The position numbers and the translations under genes were made by a program. 64,000 bases of DNA from Halomarina salina (GTDB taxonomy: Archaea; Halobacteriota; Halobacteria; Halobacteriales; Haloarculaceae): NCBI RefSeq assembly GCF_023074835.1, contig NZ_JALLGW010000001.1, forward strand, positions 1 to 64,000, read 5' to 3'. Below are positions 17,970 to 31,691 of the stretch, in pieces. Position 1 is the first letter of the stretch, and the number at the start of each line of letters is the position of its first letter. The notes beneath the pieces are model-generated. The model was not told the origin of the DNA, made no database searches, and saw only the letters and a list, made by a program, of their open reading frames with translations.

Positions 17970-18869
17970 TTACTCCGCGAGGTCGATGTCGGCGCGGTAC
18001 GCCTCGATAGCCGCTCGGTACCCCGCTCGATACGTCGGGTACTCGAACCCGTAGCCCAGTTCGTGGAGGCGGTCGTTCGAGCAGCGCTTGCTCGTCTGCA
18101 GGCGGCGACGGGCGGCGTCGGAGAGGTCGTCCTCGTCGAGTCGTTCCTCTGTAGTGCGTTTCTCGGGGGGTTCGACGCCGCACTCGTCGGCCAGCCAGTC
18201 GGCCAGCGACCAGCGGTCGACCGGTTCGTCGTCGACCGCCAGCAGCACCTCGTCGTCCGGGTCGGTGTCGACGACGAACCGGAGGACGCCCGCCGCGTCG
18301 TCGCGGTGGAGCATGTTCAGGTACCCTTCCGTCACCGGCCCCTCGACGTACCGCTCCAGTCGGTAGCGGTCGGGACCGTACAACCCAGCGAACCGCACGA
18401 CGGTGCCGTCGATACCGTGCTCCGGAGCCTCCTCGCGCGCGACGCGCTCCGCCTCGACCAGCACCTCCGTCTTCTCGGTCTGCGGGTCGAGGGGCGTCTC
18501 CTCGTCGACCCACTCGCCGCCGTGGTCGCCGTAGACGCTCGTCGAGGAAGTGTAGACGAGTCGCTCCGGTGGCGACGGCCGGGCCGCGAAGTGCTCGGTC
18601 ACCGTGCGGAGCCCGTCGACGTACACCTCGCGGGCGGCCTCGGCTCCACGGCCTCCCGACGACGCGGCGAACACCAGCACGTCGCAGTCCGGGACGACCG
18701 ACAGTTCGGTGTCGTCGGTGACGTCCGCCCGGACCGCGCTCGCGCCGGTGGCCTCGACGGCCGCGATGCCCTCGTCCGAGCGCCTGACGCCGGTCACGTC
18801 GTGGTCGGTCGCGAGTCGGCGACACAGTTCGAGGCCGACGTAGCCCGCGCCGAGGACGACGACCCTCAT
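17970..18869 (-). CDS. NAD-dependent epimerase/dehydratase (extended SDR)
   Basis: 299 residues. The Rossmann motif GAGYVGLEL is at residue 7 and the catalytic YTSSTSVYG stretch near residue 110 has Tyr but lacks the usual YxxxK spacing, like YeeZ/atypical SDR proteins. The C terminus (ELGYGFEYPTYRAGY) matches the sugar-epimerase end. The ATG overlaps the stop of the upstream DUF5791 gene by 4 bp (18866-18869). Substrate unknown; nucleoside-sugar or redox sensor roles are both possible. Confidence 0.85.
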   Translation of the reverse strand: MRVVVLGAGYVGLELCRRLATDHDVTGVRRSDEGIAAVEATGASAVRADVTDDTELSVVPDCDVLVFAASSGGRGAEAAREVYVDGLRTVTEHFAARPSPPERLVYTSSTSVYGDHGGEWVDEETPLDPQTEKTEVLVEAERVAREEAPEHGIDGTVVRFAGLYGPDRYRLERYVEGPVTEGYLNMLHRDDAAGVLRFVVDTDPDDEVLLAVDDEPVDRWSLADWLADECGVEPPEKRTTEERLDEDDLSDAARRRLQTSKRCSNDRLHELGYGFEYPTYRAGYRAAIEAYRADIDLAE

Positions 18870-19294
18870 GGCTTGCGCGACTCGATGGCGTGGTGGATGC
18901 GGGCGTACTCCGCCAGCGTCACCGGGAAGCGCCCCTCGATCATCTGCTGGATCTCCTTGGGCTCTATCTGCGCGTCGATGTGGCTCGACAGCGTCTCGAC
19001 GTCGAGGACGGCCATCGACATCCCCATCATCAGCGCGTCGAGCGCCTCGGCCTCGATGGCGTCCGCGGGCGGCGTCTCGGGTTCCGTCCCGAGGATGGCG
19101 GCCGCCTCCTCCAGCGTCACCTCGACGTCCTCCCCCTCGGCTATCGCGTCGACCGTCGACCGGGCGACGCCCGCCTCGTCGGCGACGGTACTCGCCCCCA
19201 CGGTGTCGATGGTCTCGCGGAGTCGGTCCTCGTAACTCGCGCGGAGTTCGTCGACGGAGAGCGAGGCCGGGTCCGCGACTATGTCCTGAATCAT
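18866..19294 (-). CDS. DUF5791 family protein
   Basis: 142 residues, helical. SVDELRASYEDRLRETI and an HTH-like stretch (VGASTVADEAGVARSTVDAI, about residues 37-56) suggest a DNA-binding or adaptor protein, followed by a Met-rich helix and IEGRFPVTLAEYARIHHA. I recognise the family as haloarchaea-specific DUF5791. Translationally coupled to the SDR gene. No regulator target can be read from the sequence. Confidence 0.8.
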   Translation of the reverse strand: MIQDIVADPASLSVDELRASYEDRLRETIDTVGASTVADEAGVARSTVDAIAEGEDVEVTLEEAAAILGTEPETPPADAIEAEALDALMMGMSMAVLDVETLSSHIDAQIEPKEIQQMIEGRFPVTLAEYARIHHAIESRKP

Positions 19295-19398
19295 ACCACC
19301 CGTAGCGGGGGCGCGTTGAAGTGCGTTTACGTGTCGAGTGCGCCGTCGTCGAGGGCGTCGACCGGGACGAGGAGCAGCGTTCCGTGTCGCGGTCCGGT

Positions 19399-22344
19399 TC
19401 AGTCGTAGCCCGGCGAGCGCTCGTCTCGCGTCCCGTCGACGTCAGCGACGCCGCGGTTCCCTGCCGGGACGACGACCACGACGGTCGTCGACGCCTCGAA
19501 CGACACCCTCGGAGCGACGCCCAGTCGCTCCCGCTCGCCGTTTCCGTCCACGTCGATTGCGACCGCCGACCCGTCGCGGACGTAGGTCGTGTCGCGCGCG
19601 CCGCGCCTGGAGCGGACCGTCAGTCGCTCGTAGGTGCCCCGCACCGACACCGACCAGCCGTTGAGCGTCGCGTACCAGTAGCCGGGCACCGGCGCGACGG
19701 GGAGACCGAGCGGAACGTCGTCGAGCGTCCGGTTCAACACGCGCTGGAGGACGCGGTTCGTCGCCTCCTCGCCCGCGTCCGTGGCGACCTGTCTCGCCGC
19801 GCCCCGAAGCGCTGCACGGTTTCCCTCGGAGACGGGCGAGACGGACGACTCGGTGGGGCGCGCGCCGTCCTCACGGAGCGCCTCGCGGGTCGTCGTCCGG
19901 AGCGTCGCAGCGAGGCGCTCCTCGCCGCCCGACACCGACGCGGCCGCGGTGACCCGCTCGGCCGCGGAGCCGTTGGCGAGCGCCAGCGCTCGGGCGGCGG
20001 GCGTCTCCCAGCGCCCGAGTCCCGCGGTGACGACGCCGCGACAGTCGGACGTGGTACCACAGACGCCCTCGTCGGCGAGCGTGCGAGCGAGGCGGCCCCG
20101 GACGAACGCGACGCCGTCGCGCACCTCGCCGCGGAGTGCCTCGCGGTCGGTCGCCGACGAGTTCGAGAACCGACCGCTCGCACGGAGCGTCCCGGCGGCC
20201 GAGCGCAGCGAGACGCGCTCCGGCCCGGCGAGCAGTCGGGCGAACCAGCCCGCGCCGTCGCCGTAGGGCACCGTCACCCAGTTCAGGTTGCGCGCGTCGA
20301 GCGGCGTGACGCTCCCCGCACCGTCGCCGAATCGCTCGCGTGCGACCGGGTCGAGCGTGAGGTACGACGGCGCGGTGTCGACGGTGACGCCGAGCGGTCC
20401 GCCGAGACCGTCGGTCGAACCGACCGGGCCGGGGTCGGTCGAGTCGTCGGTCGCCACGTCCAGCGAGCGCCGCACGTCGGCGAGCGAACTCCCGCGCTCT
20501 CCGAGCGACTCGTCCAGGTCCGAGCGCGTCTCCCGGCGCTCCTCGGCACGGGCGTCGAGACTGTCGAGCAGCGAGTCGAGGTACGCGCGCCGGACGGCAA
20601 CGCGGGTCCTGTCGGCCATCCCGTCGTAGGTGGCTGGTGCGTCGATCAGGTCGCCGCGCTTGGCGCGGATTCGCGCCGCGAGTCGGGCAGGCGGCGAGAC
20701 GGCGTACGTTCCCACGTCGACCTGCGGGAGCGTCACCGAGACGTTCCGGACGCGCCGGTCGAGGGCGGCGATGTCCTCGTCGAGCCGGGAGCGAAGGCCG
20801 GCCGGACGGTCGCCGAGGACCCGAACCGCGTCGCCGTCGAGCGTCCCCCCGACGGCGCGACGGGCGAGCGCGTCGGCTCCGCCGCGGTCGGTCACGACTC
20901 GGTCGACGGCAGCCGACGGCACTCCCTGTAGGTTCGGACCGCCGAGCGCGCCGCGCTCCTCGTACACCCCGTCCACGCCGCGCCGAGCGACGCGGCTCTC
21001 TGGGGAGTGCCGCCCGACGACGGCCAGCGAGACGCGGTGCTCGCTGGCTCGGACCGAGGTGGTAGTCGTGGTCTCATCGCCGCGCCGCCAGCGCGTCGTC
21101 GTGACCTCACGGACGGTCACGCGACGGTCGTAGCGGCGGAAGGTCCGCCAGTCCGTCGGGACGTTCGCGGTCGGGGTGTCGGCGCTCGACGCGCCAGCGA
21201 CGGTCCGCTCGGTCCGGGTCGCCGCGTCGACGCGGGTCCAGTTCGGGCCGGGTCGGGAGTCGCCGTCGGTGGTGACCCCCGACGACGAGACGGCGCTGAC
21301 GACCCGCGTGTCGACGGCGTAGCTACGCCGGACGATGCGGTCGAGCGTCGTCTCGTTCGACGCCGCGAGCGCGCGGTCGGCCGCGGCCGTCGGCGACACG
21401 TCGACCGTCTCGTTCCGCACGCTCCCGTCGAGACGACCGACCCCGCGTTCGGCCTCGTCGAGCGTCTCCTCGACGACCGGCCCCGGAATCGACCCGGGCG
21501 CGAGGTCCGTGGCGAGCGCCCGTGCCCAGGCGGCCGCGAGCGCCTCGTCGCTCCGCGAGTCGGTGTCGCCGAGCGTCGCGCGCTGGACGCCCAGCACGGC
21601 GTCGTTCGCCGCGAGCGCGACGTGCTGGTTCCCGACGACGGAGGCGACCGGTGCGCCGCGGTACTGGGCCGCGCCGCGGACCCACGCCAGCGCGTACATC
21701 CCGGCGGTGAAGCGCTGTCCGAAGCCCGGCGACGTGACGCCGGCGTCGAGGCGCTCTTCGAAGCGCTCGACCCGGTCGTGGAGTTCGAGGACGGGCGACG
21801 CGACGGTGACCGTCGGCGCGACGTGCTTCTCACCGACCATTCGCTCCGCGCGACTCGCCCGAACCTGCACCCCCTCGATTCGCACCCGGAGCGCGGTGCC
21901 GTTCGGTCCCGCCCGCGAGACGTGGACCCGGCGTTTGGCCGCCCGGAGGTCGGCGGGAGAGTCGACACCAGGGAGCGCCGGATCAGCCGTGACGGGGCCT
22001 GCAGTGGCCGACACCGCCCCGAGGTGCTCCCGCGCAGCGAGGTAGATACGGACGCGGAGCGCGTCCTCGAACGTCTCCGAGTCGTTCAGTACGCGGCCGT
22101 ACGCCGTCGGCGCACGCTGGGTGACCGGATTCCGTGCGGCGTCGCGGGCGGCATCTGCCACCGCCTCGCGGAGTGCGGTCTGGGTGGTGGCCGTCGCCTC
22201 GCGCATCGCGCGGTCGACCGCCAGGTCCTGGGTCGCGGTCGGTCCCCCGAACTGCGTCGTCGCCACCGTCGCGCTGGTGACGAGGAGGACGACGCCGAGC
22301 AGGGCGAACGGGACGCGACCGCGGGTGTCGTCGGCCAGCCTCAT
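19399..22344 (-). CDS. Large N-anchored protein of the secretion locus (DUF7286-like)
   Basis: 981 residues, last gene of the eight-gene Tad-like locus. A single hydrophobic segment lies at residues about 10-30 (RGRVPFALLGVVLLVTSATV) right after a positively charged start, like a prepilin or TadE/TadG-type anchor; the rest should be outside the cell and is unusually Arg-rich for a halophile. Near residue 980 a second short hydrophobic strand precedes a charged tail. I recall it only as DUF7286. It overlaps the previous gene by 4 bp. By size and topology it is a candidate for a TadG-like assembly component, which is inference. Confidence 0.75.
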   Translation of the reverse strand: MRLADDTRGRVPFALLGVVLLVTSATVATTQFGGPTATQDLAVDRAMREATATTQTALREAVADAARDAARNPVTQRAPTAYGRVLNDSETFEDALRVRIYLAAREHLGAVSATAGPVTADPALPGVDSPADLRAAKRRVHVSRAGPNGTALRVRIEGVQVRASRAERMVGEKHVAPTVTVASPVLELHDRVERFEERLDAGVTSPGFGQRFTAGMYALAWVRGAAQYRGAPVASVVGNQHVALAANDAVLGVQRATLGDTDSRSDEALAAAWARALATDLAPGSIPGPVVEETLDEAERGVGRLDGSVRNETVDVSPTAAADRALAASNETTLDRIVRRSYAVDTRVVSAVSSSGVTTDGDSRPGPNWTRVDAATRTERTVAGASSADTPTANVPTDWRTFRRYDRRVTVREVTTTRWRRGDETTTTTSVRASEHRVSLAVVGRHSPESRVARRGVDGVYEERGALGGPNLQGVPSAAVDRVVTDRGGADALARRAVGGTLDGDAVRVLGDRPAGLRSRLDEDIAALDRRVRNVSVTLPQVDVGTYAVSPPARLAARIRAKRGDLIDAPATYDGMADRTRVAVRRAYLDSLLDSLDARAEERRETRSDLDESLGERGSSLADVRRSLDVATDDSTDPGPVGSTDGLGGPLGVTVDTAPSYLTLDPVARERFGDGAGSVTPLDARNLNWVTVPYGDGAGWFARLLAGPERVSLRSAAGTLRASGRFSNSSATDREALRGEVRDGVAFVRGRLARTLADEGVCGTTSDCRGVVTAGLGRWETPAARALALANGSAAERVTAAASVSGGEERLAATLRTTTREALREDGARPTESSVSPVSEGNRAALRGAARQVATDAGEEATNRVLQRVLNRTLDDVPLGLPVAPVPGYWYATLNGWSVSVRGTYERLTVRSRRGARDTTYVRDGSAVAIDVDGNGERERLGVAPRVSFEASTTVVVVVPAGNRGVADVDGTRDERSPGYD

Positions 22345-23150
22345 CGCCAGCGCACCACCGCGAGTCTGACCGTATCGAGCGTCAGCGCCGCGGCGGCCCG
22401 CCGTGGCGACTCGAACCGACGACGCATGTCGGTCGTCAGTCGGGCCGCGAGCGCGTCCGCGAGACGGTCGCGAGCAGTCGTCGCGGACCGGTTCGCCAGA
22501 GGGCCGCGCACTTCGGCACCGACGACCGCCGCGAACCGTCGATACCGTGGAGCGGTCCGCGCGCGGGCAGCATCCGTGCCGAGGTTCGACCGACCCGCAC
22601 CGGGTGGGAACAGTCGCGCGACGAACCGCTCCGCGACTGTTCGCGCGAGCGGACGGAATCCGTCGTCGGCCGCCGCCCGTGCTCGGTCCGTGTCGAGTGC
22701 GATTCCGCTCGGGACGGTCACGACGGCCACGTCGGTGACGGCGTCGCGTGGTGCGGGTGACCCGGCGGCGACGCGACCCGAGAGCGAAGCTCCGGGATAG
22801 GGCCGCCAGCGAGCGACGACCCGGACGTTCGCGACGGGACGCGCGTCGTGGACGGCCAGGGCGACCCGTCGCGGGAACGACCCTGGAAGGAGTCGGCGAC
22901 CGTCGAGCGTGGCGTTCGCGAGCGCGGCCCGCCCGAGCAACCCCGCAGGCGTGCCGCTGGCGGTCCGCTGGTGGTCTGTCCCGTCGGTGGCCTGGAGCGG
23001 GACCGACAGCGTCGTCGTGGCGAGCGTCTCCGCGGTCGGGTCGGCACGCGGCGGCGTGGGCGCAGAGGGCGAGACGACGAGCGTCGCGACGGCCGCCGAG
23101 ACCAGCAGCAGGAAGACGAGCGTGTCCGCGACGGTGCTGACTGCTCTCAC
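22341..23150 (-). CDS. N-anchored pseudopilin-like protein (DUF7284-like)
   Basis: 269 residues from a GTG at 23150, which overlaps the stop of the upstream gene as GTGA. One N-terminal helix (about residues 8-28, VADTLVFLLLVSAAVATLVV) is followed by an Arg/Ala-rich extracellular domain that I do not recognise. The tail RAAAALTLDTVRLAVVRW is amphipathic. Its own stop overlaps the ATG of the 981-residue gene (ATGA, 22341-22344). Position in the operon and topology suggest a minor structural subunit of the same machine. Confidence 0.7.
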   Translation of the reverse strand: MRAVSTVADTLVFLLLVSAAVATLVVSPSAPTPPRADPTAETLATTTLSVPLQATDGTDHQRTASGTPAGLLGRAALANATLDGRRLLPGSFPRRVALAVHDARPVANVRVVARWRPYPGASLSGRVAAGSPAPRDAVTDVAVVTVPSGIALDTDRARAAADDGFRPLARTVAERFVARLFPPGAGRSNLGTDAARARTAPRYRRFAAVVGAEVRGPLANRSATTARDRLADALAARLTTDMRRRFESPRRAAAALTLDTVRLAVVRWR

Positions 23151-23566
23151 GACCAGACCACCACCGCGAGTCGGCAGGGCCGCACCCGACCGGGGGCGAC
23201 GCGGACGCTCACGGGTACGACCGCCCGCTCGGCCGTCGATGGCGGTGCGGGACCGACGGTCCACTCGCCCCCCGTACCGGCCCCCGCATCGCGGCACGCG
23301 AGCGTCGCGTTGAGTCGGTAGCCGTCGGGAGCAGTTCCCGGAACGCCGTCGAGGCGGTCGGGGTCGGCGACGCCAGCGGGCGTGAGGTGGCCACGAGCGC
23401 GGTCGGCGACCGACTCGGCGGTCGGGTCGGAGGAGGAACCACCGGTGACCGCCAGCGTATCGCCGAGGACCCCCGCGTACAGCGAGAGCGCGGCGCAGAC
23501 CACCGCGAGGGCGACGAGGGCGGCCACCGGTTCGACCTGCCCCCTACGCGCCGACGAGCGTGACAT
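23147..23566 (-). CDS. Pseudopilin-like protein with class III-type N terminus (DUF7285-like)
   Basis: 139 residues. The start MSRSSARRGQVEPVAALVAL, with basic residues then GQVEP directly before a hydrophobic helix (about 14-33), resembles archaeal class III (prepilin) signals, where PibD would cut after the Gly and the glutamate at +5-like positions guides assembly; exact match is not perfect. The mature domain is short and contains two cysteines. The ATG at 23566 gives a 23-bp overlap with the preceding gene. An upstream GTG (23572) is possible. Confidence 0.7.
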   Translation of the reverse strand: MSRSSARRGQVEPVAALVALAVVCAALSLYAGVLGDTLAVTGGSSSDPTAESVADRARGHLTPAGVADPDRLDGVPGTAPDGYRLNATLACRDAGAGTGGEWTVGPAPPSTAERAVVPVSVRVAPGRVRPCRLAVVVWS

Positions 23567-24017
23567 CGACACCTCCCCACGTGACGCGGCGTGCGTGCAG
23601 TCGAGTCGCGTCCGGGACGACCACGCTTTCCCCATCGCGGGCGTCGCGGGCGGCCCGCTGGAACGACGCGGGCGAGTCGAACACCTGCTCGGGAGCGGTC
23701 CCGCGCAGCACCGCCGAGAGCGATGACTCGCCCGACACGGGCGTGACGGGACCGAACGCGAACGTGGCGTGAGCGCAGGCGTCGTCGCGACAGCGGTCGA
23801 GACCGTGGGGGCCGAGTTCGAGGCGCGAGCGCGTCTCGAAGGTGGCGGTCGCCGTCGCGTCGAACGACGACGCGGCGACGCGGTCGACGGTCGCTGCGGG
23901 GCGGTCGGCGTCGGGTGCGCCCGTCGGCAGGCCGAGAGCGACGCCGAGCAACGCGACGCTGGCGAGGGCGAGGCCGACCCACACGGGAACCGCGTCGGCC
24001 GGGAGGTGCCTGTCCAT
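23544..24017 (-). CDS. N-anchored small protein of the secretion locus (DUF7283-like)
   Basis: 157 residues. A short N-terminal cytoplasmic stretch (MDRHLPADAVPVW) leads to one helix at about residues 13-31, then an extracellular domain with two cysteines close together (DRCRDDACAH), possibly a disulfide. No function known. It has its own GTTCAAGT element 23 nt upstream of the ATG (24041-24048), so a transcript can start here, downstream of the ATPase/TadC genes. It overlaps the next gene by 23 bp. Confidence 0.7.
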   Translation of the reverse strand: MDRHLPADAVPVWVGLALASVALLGVALGLPTGAPDADRPAATVDRVAASSFDATATATFETRSRLELGPHGLDRCRDDACAHATFAFGPVTPVSGESSLSAVLRGTAPEQVFDSPASFQRAARDARDGESVVVPDATRLHARRVTWGGVDVTLVGA

Positions 24018-24040
24018 GGGCGCGCTGGCCCGGTGTTCCT

Positions 24041-24048
24041 ACTTGAAC
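24041..24048 (-). promoter_or_regulatory. GTTCAAGT element, copy 1
   Basis: Minus-strand CCGAGGTTCAAGTAGGA; the box ends 23 nt before the ATG at 24017. The same 8-mer precedes the genes starting at 27791 and 28716 at 24 nt. It sits where a TATA box is expected but is not A/T-rich. Confidence 0.6.
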
Positions 24049-24087
24049 CTCGGGACCGACCGGTCGAATCGTATCGTGACCGTGAAC

Positions 24088-25902
24088 TCAGGTCAACAGC
24101 CCCGCTGCGAGGAACGCCGTGACGTAGAGCGCCGTCGCCGCCGGGAGCGCGAGTCCGACCCGGTAGCCGACGCGCGCCCGGTCGGCACCGTGTTCGAGGC
24201 CGGTCGCGAGGGCCGTCAGCAACGCCGCGAGCAACAGGACGTACGCACCGACGGCCAGCGCGAGCCCTGGGGTGGGGAGTGGCGCGGCGCTAGCAGTCCC
24301 TGTCGCCGTCGCACTGCTGGAGGCGACGCCCGACGAGACCGCCTCCTCCGTTCCGGTCCCGACAGCATCCGGTGAGAGCGACCGGCCACCCATCGAGTCG
24401 GCGAGTGCGACGGTGACGCCTGCGACGAGCGGTCCGAACACGGCGGCGGTGTTGGCGAGCGTCGTCGTCACGCGCCGGAGGTCACGACGGGCCTCCCGCT
24501 CGACCGACCGGAGTCGCTCGACGTGGTCGGCGACGAGGACGAGTGCGTCGCCCGCGGGAGCGCCCTCGCGCGCGGCGACGACGAGCAACCGGAGCGTGCT
24601 GTGGACGCGCGTGCTCGGCACGGACGCCAGCGCACCGTACTCGCCGTAGAGCGCCTCGCCGACGCCGACCCGGAGCGTCCGCTGACGGCGTGCGGCGTCG
24701 GCCAGCACGGCACCGACCGGTCCCGTCACCTCCTCGGCCGCCGAGTCGATGGCCGTCTCGACCGCACGACCCTCACAGACCCGCCGACCGACCAGGTACA
24801 GCGCGTCCGGCAGTCCCTCCTCGACGGCGCGCGTCCGTTTCCGGACGACGACTGCGGGCCGGAACCAGCCGACGAGCGCCACGCCGAGGCCGCCCCCGAG
24901 CGCGACGAGCGGGCCGGACCACGCCGGGAGGAGTCGAGGGACGACGACCCACGCGACGACGGCGACGACGGCTGCTCCCGCGAGCGACGGCCAGCGGTGC
25001 GCGGGCAGGTCCGGGTGGTCGGCAGGCACCGGCGTCGCCGGGAACGTCGCGGGTCGGCGCAGGAGGAGCCACCCGCTGGCGCACGCGAGGGCGAGCGGCA
25101 GCGCGAGGTCGTACAGGGCGACGACGACGGGGAGCGTGACGCCGACGCCGGCCGCCCGCGCGGCTGGCAGGACGGCGACAAGCGCCAGCGGCAGGAGGAC
25201 GCCGAACGCGTAGAGTGCGGTCACCGGTCCCTGGAGCGCGGCGGCGGCGCTCGCCGTCCGCTCGCGGGTACCGTCGAGGATGGCTCGCGTCGCCCGGTCG
25301 AGGCTCCGGCCACGTTCGCTCGCGGGGGCGCGGCCCGCCGCCTCGACGAGCGACGTGGCGCGGCGGAGTGCGGGGAAGCGGTCACCCCACTGCTCGCCCC
25401 ACGCGCCGAGACCGGACGCTGGCGTCCCGCGGGCGCGCCGGACGTGGTCGGCGAGCGACCGGGCGAGCAGGCCGTCGTCCGCTTCGGCGGCGAACTCGGC
25501 CGCGCGCTCGACGGTCGGCTCCAGCCGCATCCGGAGCACGGCGTGGGAGACGACGACCGGCGCGGCCCCGATAGCCGCCGACTCGCGGGCGGTCGCCAGC
25601 GCGTTCGGGAGGCGGCGGAGACCGTACCAGAGACCGCCCGCCAGGACCACGACGAGCGGTGTGGCCCGCGGGGCGACGGCCGCCGTCGGGAGTGCGAGAC
25701 AGAGGCCGAGGAGTGCGGCGGTGTCGGCCGTACGACGGACGGTAGCGGCCTCGGTGGACCACTCCAGCAGGGCGAGCGACTCGGCGAGCGTGTCGGTGTC
25801 CTCGGCGGTCGTGGCACTGTCACTCTCGCAACCTCTCACTATACCGGCGACGTACGCGACGAAGGCGGTGAGCCGACCTGTCTCCGCGTCGTCCGTCAGC
25901 AT
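24088..25902 (-). CDS. TadC/type II secretion F-like membrane platform protein
   Basis: 604 residues. Two GspF/TadC-type modules are suggested by paired helices at about residues 75-115, 225-270, 305-350 and near the C terminus (about 560-600), with cytoplasmic regions between. The second T2SSF domain is clearest: EGLPDALYLVGRRVCEGRAV near 385 matches archaeal FlaJ/TadC proteins. This is the inner-membrane partner of the ATPase, whose stop codon lies inside the ATG region of this gene (7-bp overlap, 25896-25902). A Gly/Ser/Thr-rich loop near residue 540 is unusual. It is part of a pilus- or secretion-type machine. Confidence 0.8.
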   Translation of the reverse strand: MLTDDAETGRLTAFVAYVAGIVRGCESDSATTAEDTDTLAESLALLEWSTEAATVRRTADTAALLGLCLALPTAAVAPRATPLVVVLAGGLWYGLRRLPNALATARESAAIGAAPVVVSHAVLRMRLEPTVERAAEFAAEADDGLLARSLADHVRRARGTPASGLGAWGEQWGDRFPALRRATSLVEAAGRAPASERGRSLDRATRAILDGTRERTASAAAALQGPVTALYAFGVLLPLALVAVLPAARAAGVGVTLPVVVALYDLALPLALACASGWLLLRRPATFPATPVPADHPDLPAHRWPSLAGAAVVAVVAWVVVPRLLPAWSGPLVALGGGLGVALVGWFRPAVVVRKRTRAVEEGLPDALYLVGRRVCEGRAVETAIDSAAEEVTGPVGAVLADAARRQRTLRVGVGEALYGEYGALASVPSTRVHSTLRLLVVAAREGAPAGDALVLVADHVERLRSVEREARRDLRRVTTTLANTAAVFGPLVAGVTVALADSMGGRSLSPDAVGTGTEEAVSSGVASSSATATGTASAAPLPTPGLALAVGAYVLLLAALLTALATGLEHGADRARVGYRVGLALPAATALYVTAFLAAGLLT

Positions 25903-27791
25903 CGTTCGCGCCGTCGTGCGTGGGCGGCGACGACGTGGTCGGGGGCGAGGTCGCCCCCTTCGACGGTTCGCCCCAGCCACTCGGTACGGTCGGCGAGCGC
26001 ACCCCGTACGTCGGCGTAGGACTCGTCGGGGTGGGCGAGGGCAGCGACGAGCCGGCTGTTCCCCCGGTCGACGCGGCCGGTCGCGGTCAGTCCGGAGCGG
26101 TCGCGGTCGAACAGCGTCGCGAACCCGCCGTCGCGGGTGACCTCCTCGATGCGGGCGACGCGTCTCCCGTCGGCCGTCCGCTCGCAGGTCACCAGCAGGT
26201 CGGTCGCGGCGAACGCGTCGTCGTCGACGCCGTGGTCGCGGAGGCGGGCGCGGACGCCCGACGCCCCCTCGCCGTGGACCGTTCCGAGGACAGCCCCGTC
26301 GTTCGACCCGACGCGCATCGCCTCGAACAGCGCCGGGGCCTCGCTCCCCCGCACCTCGCCGACGAGGAGTGCGCCTTCGCCGAGTCGGAGTGCGGTCCGG
26401 AGGGCCTCGCTCGGCCCGAGTCCGTCGTCGGTGTCGACGTGGAGTCGCTGGACGTCGTGGCCGACTCGCTGGAGCGTCTCGACCGGGAGTTCGGCCGTGT
26501 CCTCGATGGCGACGGTGCGCACGGCGGCGGGGAGTTCGAACGTGAGCGCACCGAGGAGCGTCGTCTTCCCCGCCCCGCGGCCACCGGCGACGAGGGCGGC
26601 GGCACCGCGCTCGACCGCCAGCGAGCAGAGCGCTGCCGCGTCCGCCGGGAGCGTGCCGCCGTCGACCAGTCCGGGGAGGGTCCACGTCCCCCGGTCGCGT
26701 GCGCGGAACGCGAACGCCACGCCGTCGCTGACGGGGTCGGTGACGCCCGCGACGCGAACCCGGCGGTCGCCCGCCTCCGTCGTCGCGTCGAGCGTCGGCG
26801 ACGCCCTGGAGAACGCGCGACCGCTCGCCCGCCGAAACCGGGAGGCGAGCGTCTCCACGCCCCGCTCCGTGAGACCGACGTTCGTCCGCATCGGCCGCCC
26901 GTCGACGTGGACCCGGAGCGTCCCCTCGTCGGCGGGAGCGGTCACGAACACGTCCGAGCAGGCCGGGTCGGCGAACAGGTCCTCCAGCACGCCGTTGCCG
27001 CGGGTGTGTTTGCGGAGGACGCGCCGCACCGTCTCGACCGGTAGCTCGGACCCGTCGCCGAGAGCAGTCGTCTCCGACTCGACGGCCGCCCGGACCGCAC
27101 GCGCCGGGGCGCGTTCGCCACGGTCACCGCCAGGGACGGTCCCCGAGGCCAGGTGGTCGGCCGCGGCGGCGAGCGTGGCGAGCGCCGAGGCGTCCAGTTC
27201 GAGTTCGACCGGGACGAGGTGGTACGTCGGCAGGTCGTCGCCGGGACGCTCGTAGATGCGCACCACCGCACCCGTCGAGAGGTCCCGCCGGTCGACGAGC
27301 GTCGCCGCCTCCGGGAGCCGGCGGGCGACGCGTGACCGGGCGACCGTCGGGCCGACGGACGGTCGGAGCGCCTCGCGTTCGCTCGCGGCGCGGGCGGCCA
27401 GTTCCGCGAGGCCGGTCTCGGCCGCGACGTCGGCGACGGGGCCGGCGCGACCCGACGCCTGTCGGGCGACGTCGAGCGGGTCGCGACCGACCCGACCGGC
27501 GAGCGTCTCGTCGTGGAACGCCGCGAGGTCGGCGAACCGACCGGCGGCGAGCAGCAACGCGGCCGCCTCGTCCTCGTAGGCGCGTTCGACCCCGTTGGCA
27601 CTGGTCACGACGCACTCGGCGTCCCGGTCGGTCAGCGCGCCGACGACCGTCGTACGGCAGGCCGGTTCGGTCGCGAGACGACCCGCACCGGGACAGTCGG
27701 CCGCGTCGACGACGAGTCGGTCACCGTCGAACGAGGTGGCGCAGCGACAGTCCGCGTCGGTCTCGTCGCGGAAGCGGTCGAGCAAGGTCAC
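25896..27791 (-). CDS. Type II/IV secretion ATPase (TadA/VirB11-like) with Cys-rich N terminus
   Basis: 631 residues from a GTG at 27791. The motor domain is complete: Walker A GGRGAGKTTLLGAL near residue 405, the Asp box (TVAIEDTAELP) and Walker B/His box GALLVGEVRGSEAPALFEAM with GTVHGEGASGV. Residues 15-62 hold five cysteines (DCRC, DCP, ACR, ECV), perhaps a zinc site, and a long alpha-helical middle region (65-290) separates it from the motor. It powers assembly or secretion with TadC next door. The start is fixed by a GTTCAAGT element at 27816-27823; it overlaps the upstream gene by 71 bp, which is much more than elsewhere here. Confidence 0.85.
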   Translation of the reverse strand: MTLLDRFRDETDADCRCATSFDGDRLVVDAADCPGAGRLATEPACRTTVVGALTDRDAECVVTSANGVERAYEDEAAALLLAAGRFADLAAFHDETLAGRVGRDPLDVARQASGRAGPVADVAAETGLAELAARAASEREALRPSVGPTVARSRVARRLPEAATLVDRRDLSTGAVVRIYERPGDDLPTYHLVPVELELDASALATLAAAADHLASGTVPGGDRGERAPARAVRAAVESETTALGDGSELPVETVRRVLRKHTRGNGVLEDLFADPACSDVFVTAPADEGTLRVHVDGRPMRTNVGLTERGVETLASRFRRASGRAFSRASPTLDATTEAGDRRVRVAGVTDPVSDGVAFAFRARDRGTWTLPGLVDGGTLPADAAALCSLAVERGAAALVAGGRGAGKTTLLGALTFELPAAVRTVAIEDTAELPVETLQRVGHDVQRLHVDTDDGLGPSEALRTALRLGEGALLVGEVRGSEAPALFEAMRVGSNDGAVLGTVHGEGASGVRARLRDHGVDDDAFAATDLLVTCERTADGRRVARIEEVTRDGGFATLFDRDRSGLTATGRVDRGNSRLVAALAHPDESYADVRGALADRTEWLGRTVEGGDLAPDHVVAAHARRRERC

Positions 27792-28239
27792 GGGCGGCGG
27801 TGGTCGCGTTCTCCGACTTGAACCCTCGCCGGACGACGACGACCGACCGACCGGCACGGTGTCGGTGGGAGAGAACCAGTCGCGCTCGCCCGACGACGAC
27901 GAGCGGTCCGTCCGGGACGACCAGCGACGGAAGCCGGTCGACGTGCCACTGGCCGTCGCCGACCCGCCACGCCACGCGCCCGTCGCGGAGTCGGAGTCGC
28001 CCACTACGTGCGCCCCAGCCACGAGTCGGCAGGTCGAGGCGGAGGCTGTGGCGGGCGGCCGTCTCGCCCAGTGCTGGGTCGCTGGTTGCGGCCAGTCGCT
28101 CGCCGGTGGCTCGAACCCGCTCGCTCGCGTCGTCGAGGGCCGTCGCGGCCCTGGTGCTGCGGGCGTCGTCGACGGCGGGCAGGGACACGGCGAGTAGCGC
28201 GAGGGTGAGCAGGACTGCGAGGACGACGCGGAGGGCCAC
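27721..28239 (-). CDS. N-anchored accessory protein of the secretion locus (DUF7311-like)
   Basis: 172 residues from a GTG at 28239, which begins 3 bp after the stop of the coiled-coil gene. One helix at about residues 3-22 (LRVVLAVLLTLALLAVSLPA) is followed by an Arg-rich domain. The last 24 codons overlap the ATPase gene in another frame, so the C terminus may be less constrained. Family I recall as DUF7311; function unknown. The stretch encoding RRGFKSEN contains the promoter-like GTTCAAGT box of the ATPase gene. Confidence 0.65.
   Translation of the reverse strand: MALRVVLAVLLTLALLAVSLPAVDDARSTRAATALDDASERVRATGERLAATSDPALGETAARHSLRLDLPTRGWGARSGRLRLRDGRVAWRVGDGQWHVDRLPSLVVPDGPLVVVGRARLVLSHRHRAGRSVVVVRRGFKSENATTAARDLARPLPRRDRRGLSLRHLVRR
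27816..27823 (-). promoter_or_regulatory. GTTCAAGT element, copy 2
   Basis: Minus-strand GCGAGGGTTCAAGTCGGAG inside the end of the DUF7311-like gene; the box ends 24 nt before the GTG at 27791. Because it lies in coding sequence yet keeps the spacing seen in the two intergenic copies, it supports an internal promoter for the ATPase. Confidence 0.55.
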
Positions 28240-28242
28240 GGC

Positions 28243-28716
28243 TCAGAACGCGTCGCCGACGCGGGCGAGGAGACCGCTGTCCGCCTCCTCCTCGTCGGTG
28301 GTCTCCGACTCCTCGGTCGTGTCCCACGCCGACGCGTCGACAGGGGTCGAGAGCTCCCGGCCCGTCGGTGCGTGGAGCGGGCCGTGAGCCTCGTCGAACC
28401 GCTCGTCGTTCGCGGTCGAATCGCCGTCGGTCGCTCGGGTCACTGGTGGGTCGGAAGCGGGTGCGTCCGACGCTGCCGCGTGTGTCTCGGAAACTCGCTG
28501 CTCGATGTCGCCGACGACCGCACGAAGCGACTCGACGGAGGCCCGGAGGTCGGCGACGTCGGCTTCCAGCGTCTCGACGCGGTCGGGGTCGACGCTCGTC
28601 GTCGGTGGGAGCGTCGTATCGCCGGCAGTGGCGTCGTCGGACCCGTCGGTCAGCGCGCGTTCGAGTGCGTCGACGCGGTCGGCGAGCGAGGAGTCGGTAG
28701 TTGGGGTGTCGGTCAT
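28243..28716 (-). CDS. Coiled-coil accessory protein of the secretion locus (DUF7310-like)
   Basis: 157 acidic residues with no membrane segment, first gene of the locus. Residues about 10-25 and 45-75 form heptad-rich helices (LADRVDALERALTDG; VETLEADVADLRASVESLRA then VVGDIEQRV), a clear coiled coil, followed by a disordered acidic linker and a short C-terminal helix (SGLLARVGDAF). Probably a cytoplasmic adaptor of the ATPase. Family recalled as DUF7310. It has the first GTTCAAGT element 24 nt upstream and a 3-bp gap to the next gene. Confidence 0.75.
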   Translation of the reverse strand: MTDTPTTDSSLADRVDALERALTDGSDDATAGDTTLPPTTSVDPDRVETLEADVADLRASVESLRAVVGDIEQRVSETHAAASDAPASDPPVTRATDGDSTANDERFDEAHGPLHAPTGRELSTPVDASAWDTTEESETTDEEEADSGLLARVGDAF

Positions 28717-28740
28717 GGACGACGCTGGTCTCGGCCTGCT

Positions 28741-28748
28741 ACTTGAAC
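28741..28748 (-). promoter_or_regulatory. GTTCAAGT element, copy 3 (locus promoter)
   Basis: Minus-strand CCGAGCGTTCAAGTAGCAGG; the box ends 24 nt before the ATG at 28716 and is the best candidate for the main promoter of the eight-gene locus. Confidence 0.6.
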
Positions 28749-28847
28749 GCTCGGAGAGCGATGCTGCGGGTTTCAGAGCAACGAGGCGGGTCAGGAACGA
28801 GACGAGACAGGGACGAAGCGAGCGTTCGGTCGGACGGGAGAACCGGT

Positions 28848-31328: not shown

Positions 31329-31691
31329 ATGTCAGAGGCACAGTCAGTAGCTGGCGACCCGGGCATCAGCCGCGAATTGACAGCGTTCCAACAGAATATC
31401 CTCGTCATCCTCGCCGAGGAGCCCCGATACGGGCTCGCTATCAAGCGAGAGCTCGAGGAGTACTACAACTCCGAAGTGAACCACGGGCGACTCTACCCCA
31501 ACCTGGACGACCTCGTGGAGCTCGACCTCGTCGAGAAGAGTGAACTCGACAAGCGGACGAACCAGTACGCGCTGACCGAGGACGGCAAGCAGGCAGTCCT
31601 CGACCAGCTTCGCTGGGTGTTCTCGCGCTACGTCGTCGACGACTCGCGTGCGAGCGACCTGCGCGAACTCATCGACACCGTCGAGCAGTAG
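31329..31691 (+). CDS. PadR-family winged-helix regulator, RosR-like
   Basis: 120 residues, a single winged helix: LTAFQQNILVILAEEPRYGL (helix 1-2), the recognition segment HGRLYPNLDDLVELDLVEK, then the wing KRTNQYALTEDG and a C-terminal dimerisation helix. The GRLYPNLDDLVE core and overall length closely resemble haloarchaeal RosR, the oxidative-stress regulator, though I cannot prove orthology without search. Transcription is leaderless from the TTTTAAATA box. The 185-bp upstream spacer has an imperfect dyad near 31250-31280 (TTCGCAG ... CTGACGAA) that could be its own operator. Convergent with the RNase HI operon. Confidence 0.9.
   Translation: MSEAQSVAGDPGISRELTAFQQNILVILAEEPRYGLAIKRELEEYYNSEVNHGRLYPNLDDLVELDLVEKSELDKRTNQYALTEDGKQAVLDQLRWVFSRYVVDDSRASDLRELIDTVEQ

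Follow-up and report, generated by a model that had tools for sequence, protein, structure and literature searches.

Three genes of a secretion locus appear to be transcribed from leaderless promoters that are built of two parts. The octamer GTTCAAGT, which an earlier note had found at a fixed distance before these genes, is very probably the TATA half of these promoters, and a GC-rich element, CGSGRCCA, lies between it and the start codon. Read from the sequence, this is a discrete promoter class that is defined by CGSGRCCA and not by GTTCAAGT. The same arrangement precedes a small set of genes for DNA-handling proteins as well as a multicopy family of structured RNAs, and we put the probability of a two-part promoter class common to these genes and RNAs at roughly 0.9.

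The octamer in the window and in the genome

In the window (the whole stretch of DNA analysed, 64,000 nt), GTTCAAGT occurs only at the three minus-strand positions listed in Table 1, which are those that the earlier note had given. This is above chance, as shuffled sequence is expected to contain 0.38 copies and none of 100 shuffles had three or more. The distances to the start codons are as had been described, and the CGAG flank was found either immediately upstream of GTTCAAGT or shifted one base further upstream. One copy had been said to lie inside another coding sequence, and it does so, in the DUF7311 open reading frame just beyond the end of the Pfam domain. This frame overlaps the ATPase gene by 71 nt (27721-27791, minus strand); thus, the predicted ATPase promoter is within the C-terminal extension of DUF7311. 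A gene for a PadR-like regulator is located about 2.6 kb upstream of the locus (31329-31691, plus strand), and no link between it and the class promoter was found.

Table 1. Positions of the predicted promoter parts and genes of the secretion locus (window coordinates) and of the RNA copies found elsewhere in the same genome (C1 and C2 coordinates)
Feature	Position	Strand	Basis or remark
GTTCAAGT, TATA half, DUF7310 promoter	28741..28748	-	24 nt before ATG 28716; matrix rank 2/1217
Downstream element CGAGACCA, DUF7310 promoter	28726..28733	-	pattern and matrix scan
BRE-like CCGAGC upstream of TATA half, DUF7310 promoter	28749..28754	-	read; general BRE position
GTTCAAGT, TATA half, secretion-ATPase promoter, within DUF7311 ORF	27816..27823	-	24 nt before GTG 27791; matrix rank 1/1217
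Downstream element CGCGACCA, ATPase promoter	27801..27808	-	pattern and matrix scan
BRE-like GCGAGG upstream of TATA half, ATPase promoter	27824..27829	-	read
GTTCAAGT, TATA half, DUF7283 promoter	24041..24048	-	23 nt before ATG 24017; matrix rank 3/1217
Downstream element CCGGGCCA, DUF7283 promoter	24026..24033	-	matrix scan; kept in 30/30 orthologues
BRE-like CCCGAG upstream of TATA half, DUF7283 promoter	24049..24054	-	read
DUF7310 coiled-coil gene	28243..28716	-	PF23991, E 1.5e-9, just under cut-off
DUF7311 gene, ATPase promoter in its 3' end	27721..28239	-	PF23993
Secretion/pilus ATPase gene (T2SSE; nearest to TadA-type)	25896..27791	-	PF00437; TIGR03819 124.7 bits, under its cut-off
T2SSF membrane platform gene	24088..25902	-	PF00482
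DUF7283 gene	23544..24017	-	PF23954
DUF7285 gene (start approximate)	23147..23563	-	PF23956
DUF7284 gene (start approximate)	22341..23150	-	PF23955
DUF7286 gene	19399..22344	-	PF23957, 1021 bits
RNA copy	C2:528803-528888	-	
RNA copy	C1:206949-207037	+	
RNA copy	C1:1349058-1349172	+	
RNA copy	C2:340738-340839	+	
RNA copy	C1:1364593-1364707	+	
RNA copy	C1:1839458-1839576	-	

Over-representation of the octamer in the genome as a whole can be ruled out, given 62 copies versus 54 of the reversed pattern, because G-TTC-AAG-T is a common Phe-Lys coding sequence. It is nevertheless locked in position, not equally common at random positions. This was judged from a sample of the genome made up of stretches totalling 1.26 Mb, together with every GTTCAAGT site, in which 1218 genes were called with a codon model (the gene starts are those of a home-made gene caller). 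Among the 19 copies in the 1.26 Mb, six are in-frame Phe-Lys codons, seven fall exactly 22-24 nt before called starts, and the other six precede tRNA-Gly, tRNA-Val, two pseudoknot RNAs and two short ORFs. Inside the 60 nt upstream of called starts, GTTCAAGT is confined to the TATA position, where it is the third most enriched octamer of the sample. Further octamers enriched at this position in the 1.26 Mb (GAACGCTT, GCTTTTGT, GAGTTAAC and AGGACTAT) are maybe other promoter variants.

The general promoter of the genome, derived from the called genes of the 1.26 Mb, is of the common haloarchaeal form: a BRE is followed by a box rich in T and A at -30 to -26, and -10 is occupied by A. Set against it, GTTCAAGT occupies the TATA position of leaderless genes, as had been suspected, and it can be taken as a promoter element there. 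However, it also occurs without the second element before tRNA-Gly, tRNA-Val and a gene that we take from its sequence to be mutS; the octamer alone therefore appears to be a TATA-box variant with no specificity of its own, an own-lineage spelling of an interchangeable TATA half. The second element had been missed in the earlier note.

The downstream element

The common pattern of the three window promoters is GTTCAAGT-N11-RCCA, with the end of RCCA 8 or 9 nt before the start codon. The complete second element, CGSGRCCA, spans about -17 to -9, and from the first T of the TATA half to the end of RCCA the distance is 22 nt. The generic -10 signal of this genome is AA, not RCCA. In the class promoters a TATA-type box about 27 nt before the start and a BRE upstream of it are present, the WW (AA) at -10 is absent, and RCCA stands in its place.

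TTCAAGTN11RCCA has nine matches in the whole genome versus two for the reversed control, and of 57 genomes from the family some have as many as 12-14 matches each, versus 1-3 reversed. With the spacer shortened by one base, three matches remained over 146 genomes, and the family had none. A score matrix trained solely on 95 RNA promoters of other genomes ranked the ATPase, DUF7310 and DUF7283 genes first, second and third of 1217 genes in this genome (34.6, 30.2 and 27.5), followed by a Cas4-like gene (27.2), after which the score drops to 12.8 at rank 5. When the same matrix was run over the 1.26 Mb without restriction, 15 places scored >14 bits. These comprise the three window genes, the Cas4-like gene, an RPA gene and the HerA-like and DUF7382 genes, which form a divergent pair; six further places are RNA copies, of which one was recognised solely by its RTG-NNN-TGA start, and two are weak.

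Protein genes with the class promoter are few in any one genome. The identity of the RPA gene is given by an NCBIfam match of 734 bits, and the HerA-like label in this genome rests on likeness to a protein of a relative (L162) that matches HerA. The gene at C1:1109762 scores 33.6 bits with TIGR00372 (Cas4) versus a cut-off of 65, and is termed Cas4-like only. In relatives, the genes that recur behind the promoter are those for DUF7310, DUF7283, the secretion ATPase, a NucS_N/zinc-ribbon protein and a Cas4-like protein, as well as DUF7382 pilin-like, ParA-like, HerA-like and TctA-like proteins. The NucS candidates (L157, L173) have only the NucS_N domain and a zinc ribbon, and score 32 bits in the NCBIfam NucS model versus 216. 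The DUF7382 pilin-like and HerA-like ATPase genes are divergent, and in this genome both have the class promoter (C1:183364 and C1:183421); the same divergent pair, likewise with the class promoter at both genes, is found in L006, at 18863-19354 (minus strand) and 19430-19999 (plus strand). For about half of the pattern occurrences in relatives, what follows is not a protein gene; a GC-rich intergenic sequence about 90 nt long stands there (see below).

Conservation at the secretion locus

The class promoter was found at all 30 DUF7283 orthologues fetched across the order, with scores of 9.8-36.1; the highest score among 1140 other windows at these loci was 0.8. At these orthologous promoters the TATA half varies (TTTAAGT, TTTATAT, TTTAAAC) and CGSGRC(C/G)A is mostly constant; likewise, in the RNA promoters of other families the TATA half reads TTTATAT, TTTAAAT and so on, and CGSGRCCA is kept. 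Retention of the element, its rigid spacing and its sharing can be read from the sequences directly.

In Halostella pelagica and in one Haloferacaceae MAG, the DUF7310, ATPase and DUF7283 genes all carry the promoter. Because the same three genes are so marked in relatives, the claim that the element marks the whole locus stands. The idea that it coordinates this locus needs amendment, as the promoter is present at the locus genes but is not private to them, being found also before genes for DNA-handling proteins and before an RNA family of many copies. At several of the Natrialbaceae loci, the class promoter also stands before a neighbouring HerA-like gene.

A family of pseudoknot RNAs behind the same promoter

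The intergenic, GC-rich stretches of about 90 nt begin with RTG-NNN-TGA, end with CCTGTTCGCC, and fold as an H-type pseudoknot. In 24 aligned copies covariation was 0.591, compared with 0.205 (sd 0.021) when shuffled and 0.03-0.14 with slid partners; in 85 copies fetched by a covariance model, almost all of them outside the training set, it was 0.580 versus 0.160. The compensatory changes in the helices thus exceed both the shuffled and the slid controls. The model was built without the promoter and without helix P2 (its E-values are rough), so that P2 had no part in collecting the copies. Helix P2 pairs in 99% of cells for the outer four pairs and in 77% for the inner four. No clear covariation was seen for a possible third helix that would join the loop GGCG to the tail CGCC.

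Covariance-model matches were found in 73 of 146 sampled Halobacteriales genomes (29 of 57 genera), with up to at least 29 copies per genome where no more than 29 candidates were scored in each, and every match in a wider sample of the phylum fell within the same order. Halostella pelagica (CP040678.1) has 10 copies, among them those at 1834551-1834635 and 919520-919605, plus the three-promoter locus. There is no copy in the window, and searches of five named haloarchaeal plasmids and of eight named or binned genomes (of those behind L091-L100) gave none on the plasmids and none in seven of the genomes. Within a genome, copies have mean identities of 0.77-0.79 and a maximum of 0.88, which rules out very recent duplication. 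The copies are not protein genes, given that their ORFs have two codons and no coding signal, and the lack of matches rules out tRNAs and known RNA families. No Rfam family was matched at its gathering score (the best sub-threshold match had 32.5 bits versus 50). The family is the largest class behind the promoter and may be of a new kind; nothing matching either it or the two-part promoter was found in the open-access literature searched.

Copies collected with the promoter-free model carry the promoter, and in 86 of 93 the first TATA T and the end of RCCA are 22 nt apart. The distance from RCCA to the start is 8 nt in 71 RNA copies and 9 nt in 31. It should be noted that this check pooled 114 copies, about 30 of which were first found via the promoter pattern and are thus not independent.

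The 5' ends of 113 copies point to an ORF of two codons. The first codon is GTG in 86, ATG in 24 and ATC in three, and the third triplet is TGA in 93, TAG in 12, TAA in eight and TGG in none, with a search expression that allowed TGG at this place. About 10 TGG triplets would be expected if the last two positions were independent (Fisher p 2.5e-11, calculated on copies that are related). What is required at the third triplet thus seems to be a stop codon rather than a fixed sequence. No amino acid is conserved at the second codon. The distance from the start to the pseudoknot is about 15-17 nt, which would put the latter roughly at the downstream edge of a ribosome placed on the start codon.

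All 113 copies with enough flank are intergenic. Could they be cis-acting leaders of the genes that follow, instead of free RNAs? In 34 of the 113, the next gene is indeed on the same strand, at a median distance of 68 nt. In the other 79, however, it is convergent (median distance 19 nt), and its stop codon often directly adjoins the RNA's 3' end. Nor was any gene family seen to recur downstream among the copies read. We therefore consider a leader function improbable and prefer to regard the copies as free RNAs.

Genes and RNAs tend to be found in the same genomes. Of the 146, 65 have both DUF7283 and the RNA, eight the RNA only, 22 DUF7283 only, and 51 neither (Fisher 1.8e-13, not corrected for phylogeny). 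Two of the 30 genomes with promoter-bearing DUF7283 orthologues have no RNA match, and the locus is present with no RNA match in Natrialba, Halopiger and Halobiforma. The promoter therefore does not require the RNA, and, as several Natrialbaceae keep it with no RNA match, the regulon is not constant.

A candidate regulon and its control

We infer that these elements act as promoters, that the RNA of the pseudoknot family starts at the RTG, and that a common factor acts via CGSGRCCA. In order, the core would comprise CGA(A/G), which is BRE-like, a TATA half (TTYAAGT or some other variant), and CGSGRCCA, whose end is 22 nt past the first T of that half. The start codon would come 8-9 nt further on, and transcripts are predicted to begin there. 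TBP and TFB would bind the interchangeable TATA half as usual, and the GC-rich downstream element would be read by a common factor, for which a TFB paralogue or an activator is a candidate. This factor would co-regulate a programme that includes the pilus/Tad-like machine, the HerA-like ATPase, RPA, the Cas4-like nuclease and the RNAs. That a single shared factor acts on the class is in our view somewhat better than an even bet. A factor reading the downstream element is the likeliest form of control. It might be a TFB paralogue acting on the start-codon side of TATA, or else an activator, or a repressor that covers the region to be melted.

In the last of these cases, the downstream element would be an operator, and a repressor bound at about -17 to -9, on DNA that has to melt, would give joint, SOS-like derepression. 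The location of the element suits this, since a protein sitting between TATA and start would stand in the way of RNA polymerase, and so does its presence at scattered genes and RNAs. However, the element is not clearly palindromic, a repressor site has no need of a base-exact distance to TATA (the 22 nt noted above), and no candidate repressor was found, so we consider an operator possible but rather unlikely.

It is far less probable that these are ordinary haloarchaeal core promoters under no special regulation, with GTTCAAGT as just one of the permitted TATA spellings and with copies that resemble one another owing to composition or local duplication. The octamer does occur without the second element before tRNA and mutS genes, and the TATA and BRE positions equal those of the general promoter. 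However, this leaves unexplained a downstream element that is absent from other promoters, the gap between ranks 4 and 5 of the matrix search, and the conservation at every orthologue. Haloarchaea have several TBP and TFB paralogues and GTTCAAGT dominates the class in its own genus, but recognition of the GTTCAAGT box itself by a particular TBP/TFB pair, as the earlier note had ventured, is just as improbable, given that the box drifts at orthologous promoters and the downstream element stays, which makes a special TBP unlikely, and that the octamer also precedes unrelated genes such as those for tRNAs.

Sharing of one promoter class suggests that the genes and RNAs are all switched on together. 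The most likely theme of such a programme is DNA exchange or DNA damage/recombination. DNA exchange in particular is a tentative suggestion to which we would give well under even odds, as it is based on gene identities some of which are weak (NucS and Cas4 are partial and below cut-off). More doubtful still is a full programme resembling those of alternative sigma factors, in which a pilus-like DNA-exchange machine and DNA-handling proteins would be made together with multicopy RNAs of a new class, which would trap a ribosome on a leaderless ORF of two codons just ahead of a pseudoknot.

For haloarchaea, the result is a discrete and searchable promoter class that joins scattered genes in one candidate regulon. 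It also brings to light a large family of structured RNAs described neither in Rfam nor in the open papers searched; if these engage ribosomes through their layout of start codon, stop codon and pseudoknot, this would be unusual for an RNA. Two questions become directly testable, for example in Halostella pelagica: which promoter classes archaea have apart from BRE/TATA, and how archaeal DNA exchange is controlled.

Comparison with known systems

The leaderless promoter of Haloferax volcanii, as defined by dRNA-seq, has a BRE (CGAAA), a TATA element (TTWT) and WW at -10 (PMC4983044). The class promoter resembles it in the positions of BRE and TATA and in the leaderless start. The difference is that here the GC-rich CGSGRCCA replaces the WW at -10 and is in fixed register with TATA.

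Among structured RNAs, the closest comparison is with those in Rfam 15, which include small H-type pseudoknots and share with the present family a compact structure and covarying helices. What sets this family apart is its own leaderless promoter, the two-codon 5' ORF, and diverse copies numbering up to at least 29 per genome.

As a regulatory arrangement, the nearest parallel is in Sulfolobus, where the UV-inducible ups promoters share a hexanucleotide (PMC5817253) and Ups/Ced constitute a DNA-exchange programme induced by DNA damage (PMC11868833). In both cases a short promoter element joins pilus-type and DNA-handling genes at scattered sites. However, the Sulfolobus motif is upstream of the core promoter elements (PMC5817253), whereas the haloarchaeal element is between TATA and the start. 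As tested, the two sets of genes are not orthologous, and the haloarchaeal set also includes the multicopy RNAs. The likeness in kind of the protein members to the Ups/Ced programme, as far as it can be drawn from sequence, is best read as one of analogy, not of membership.
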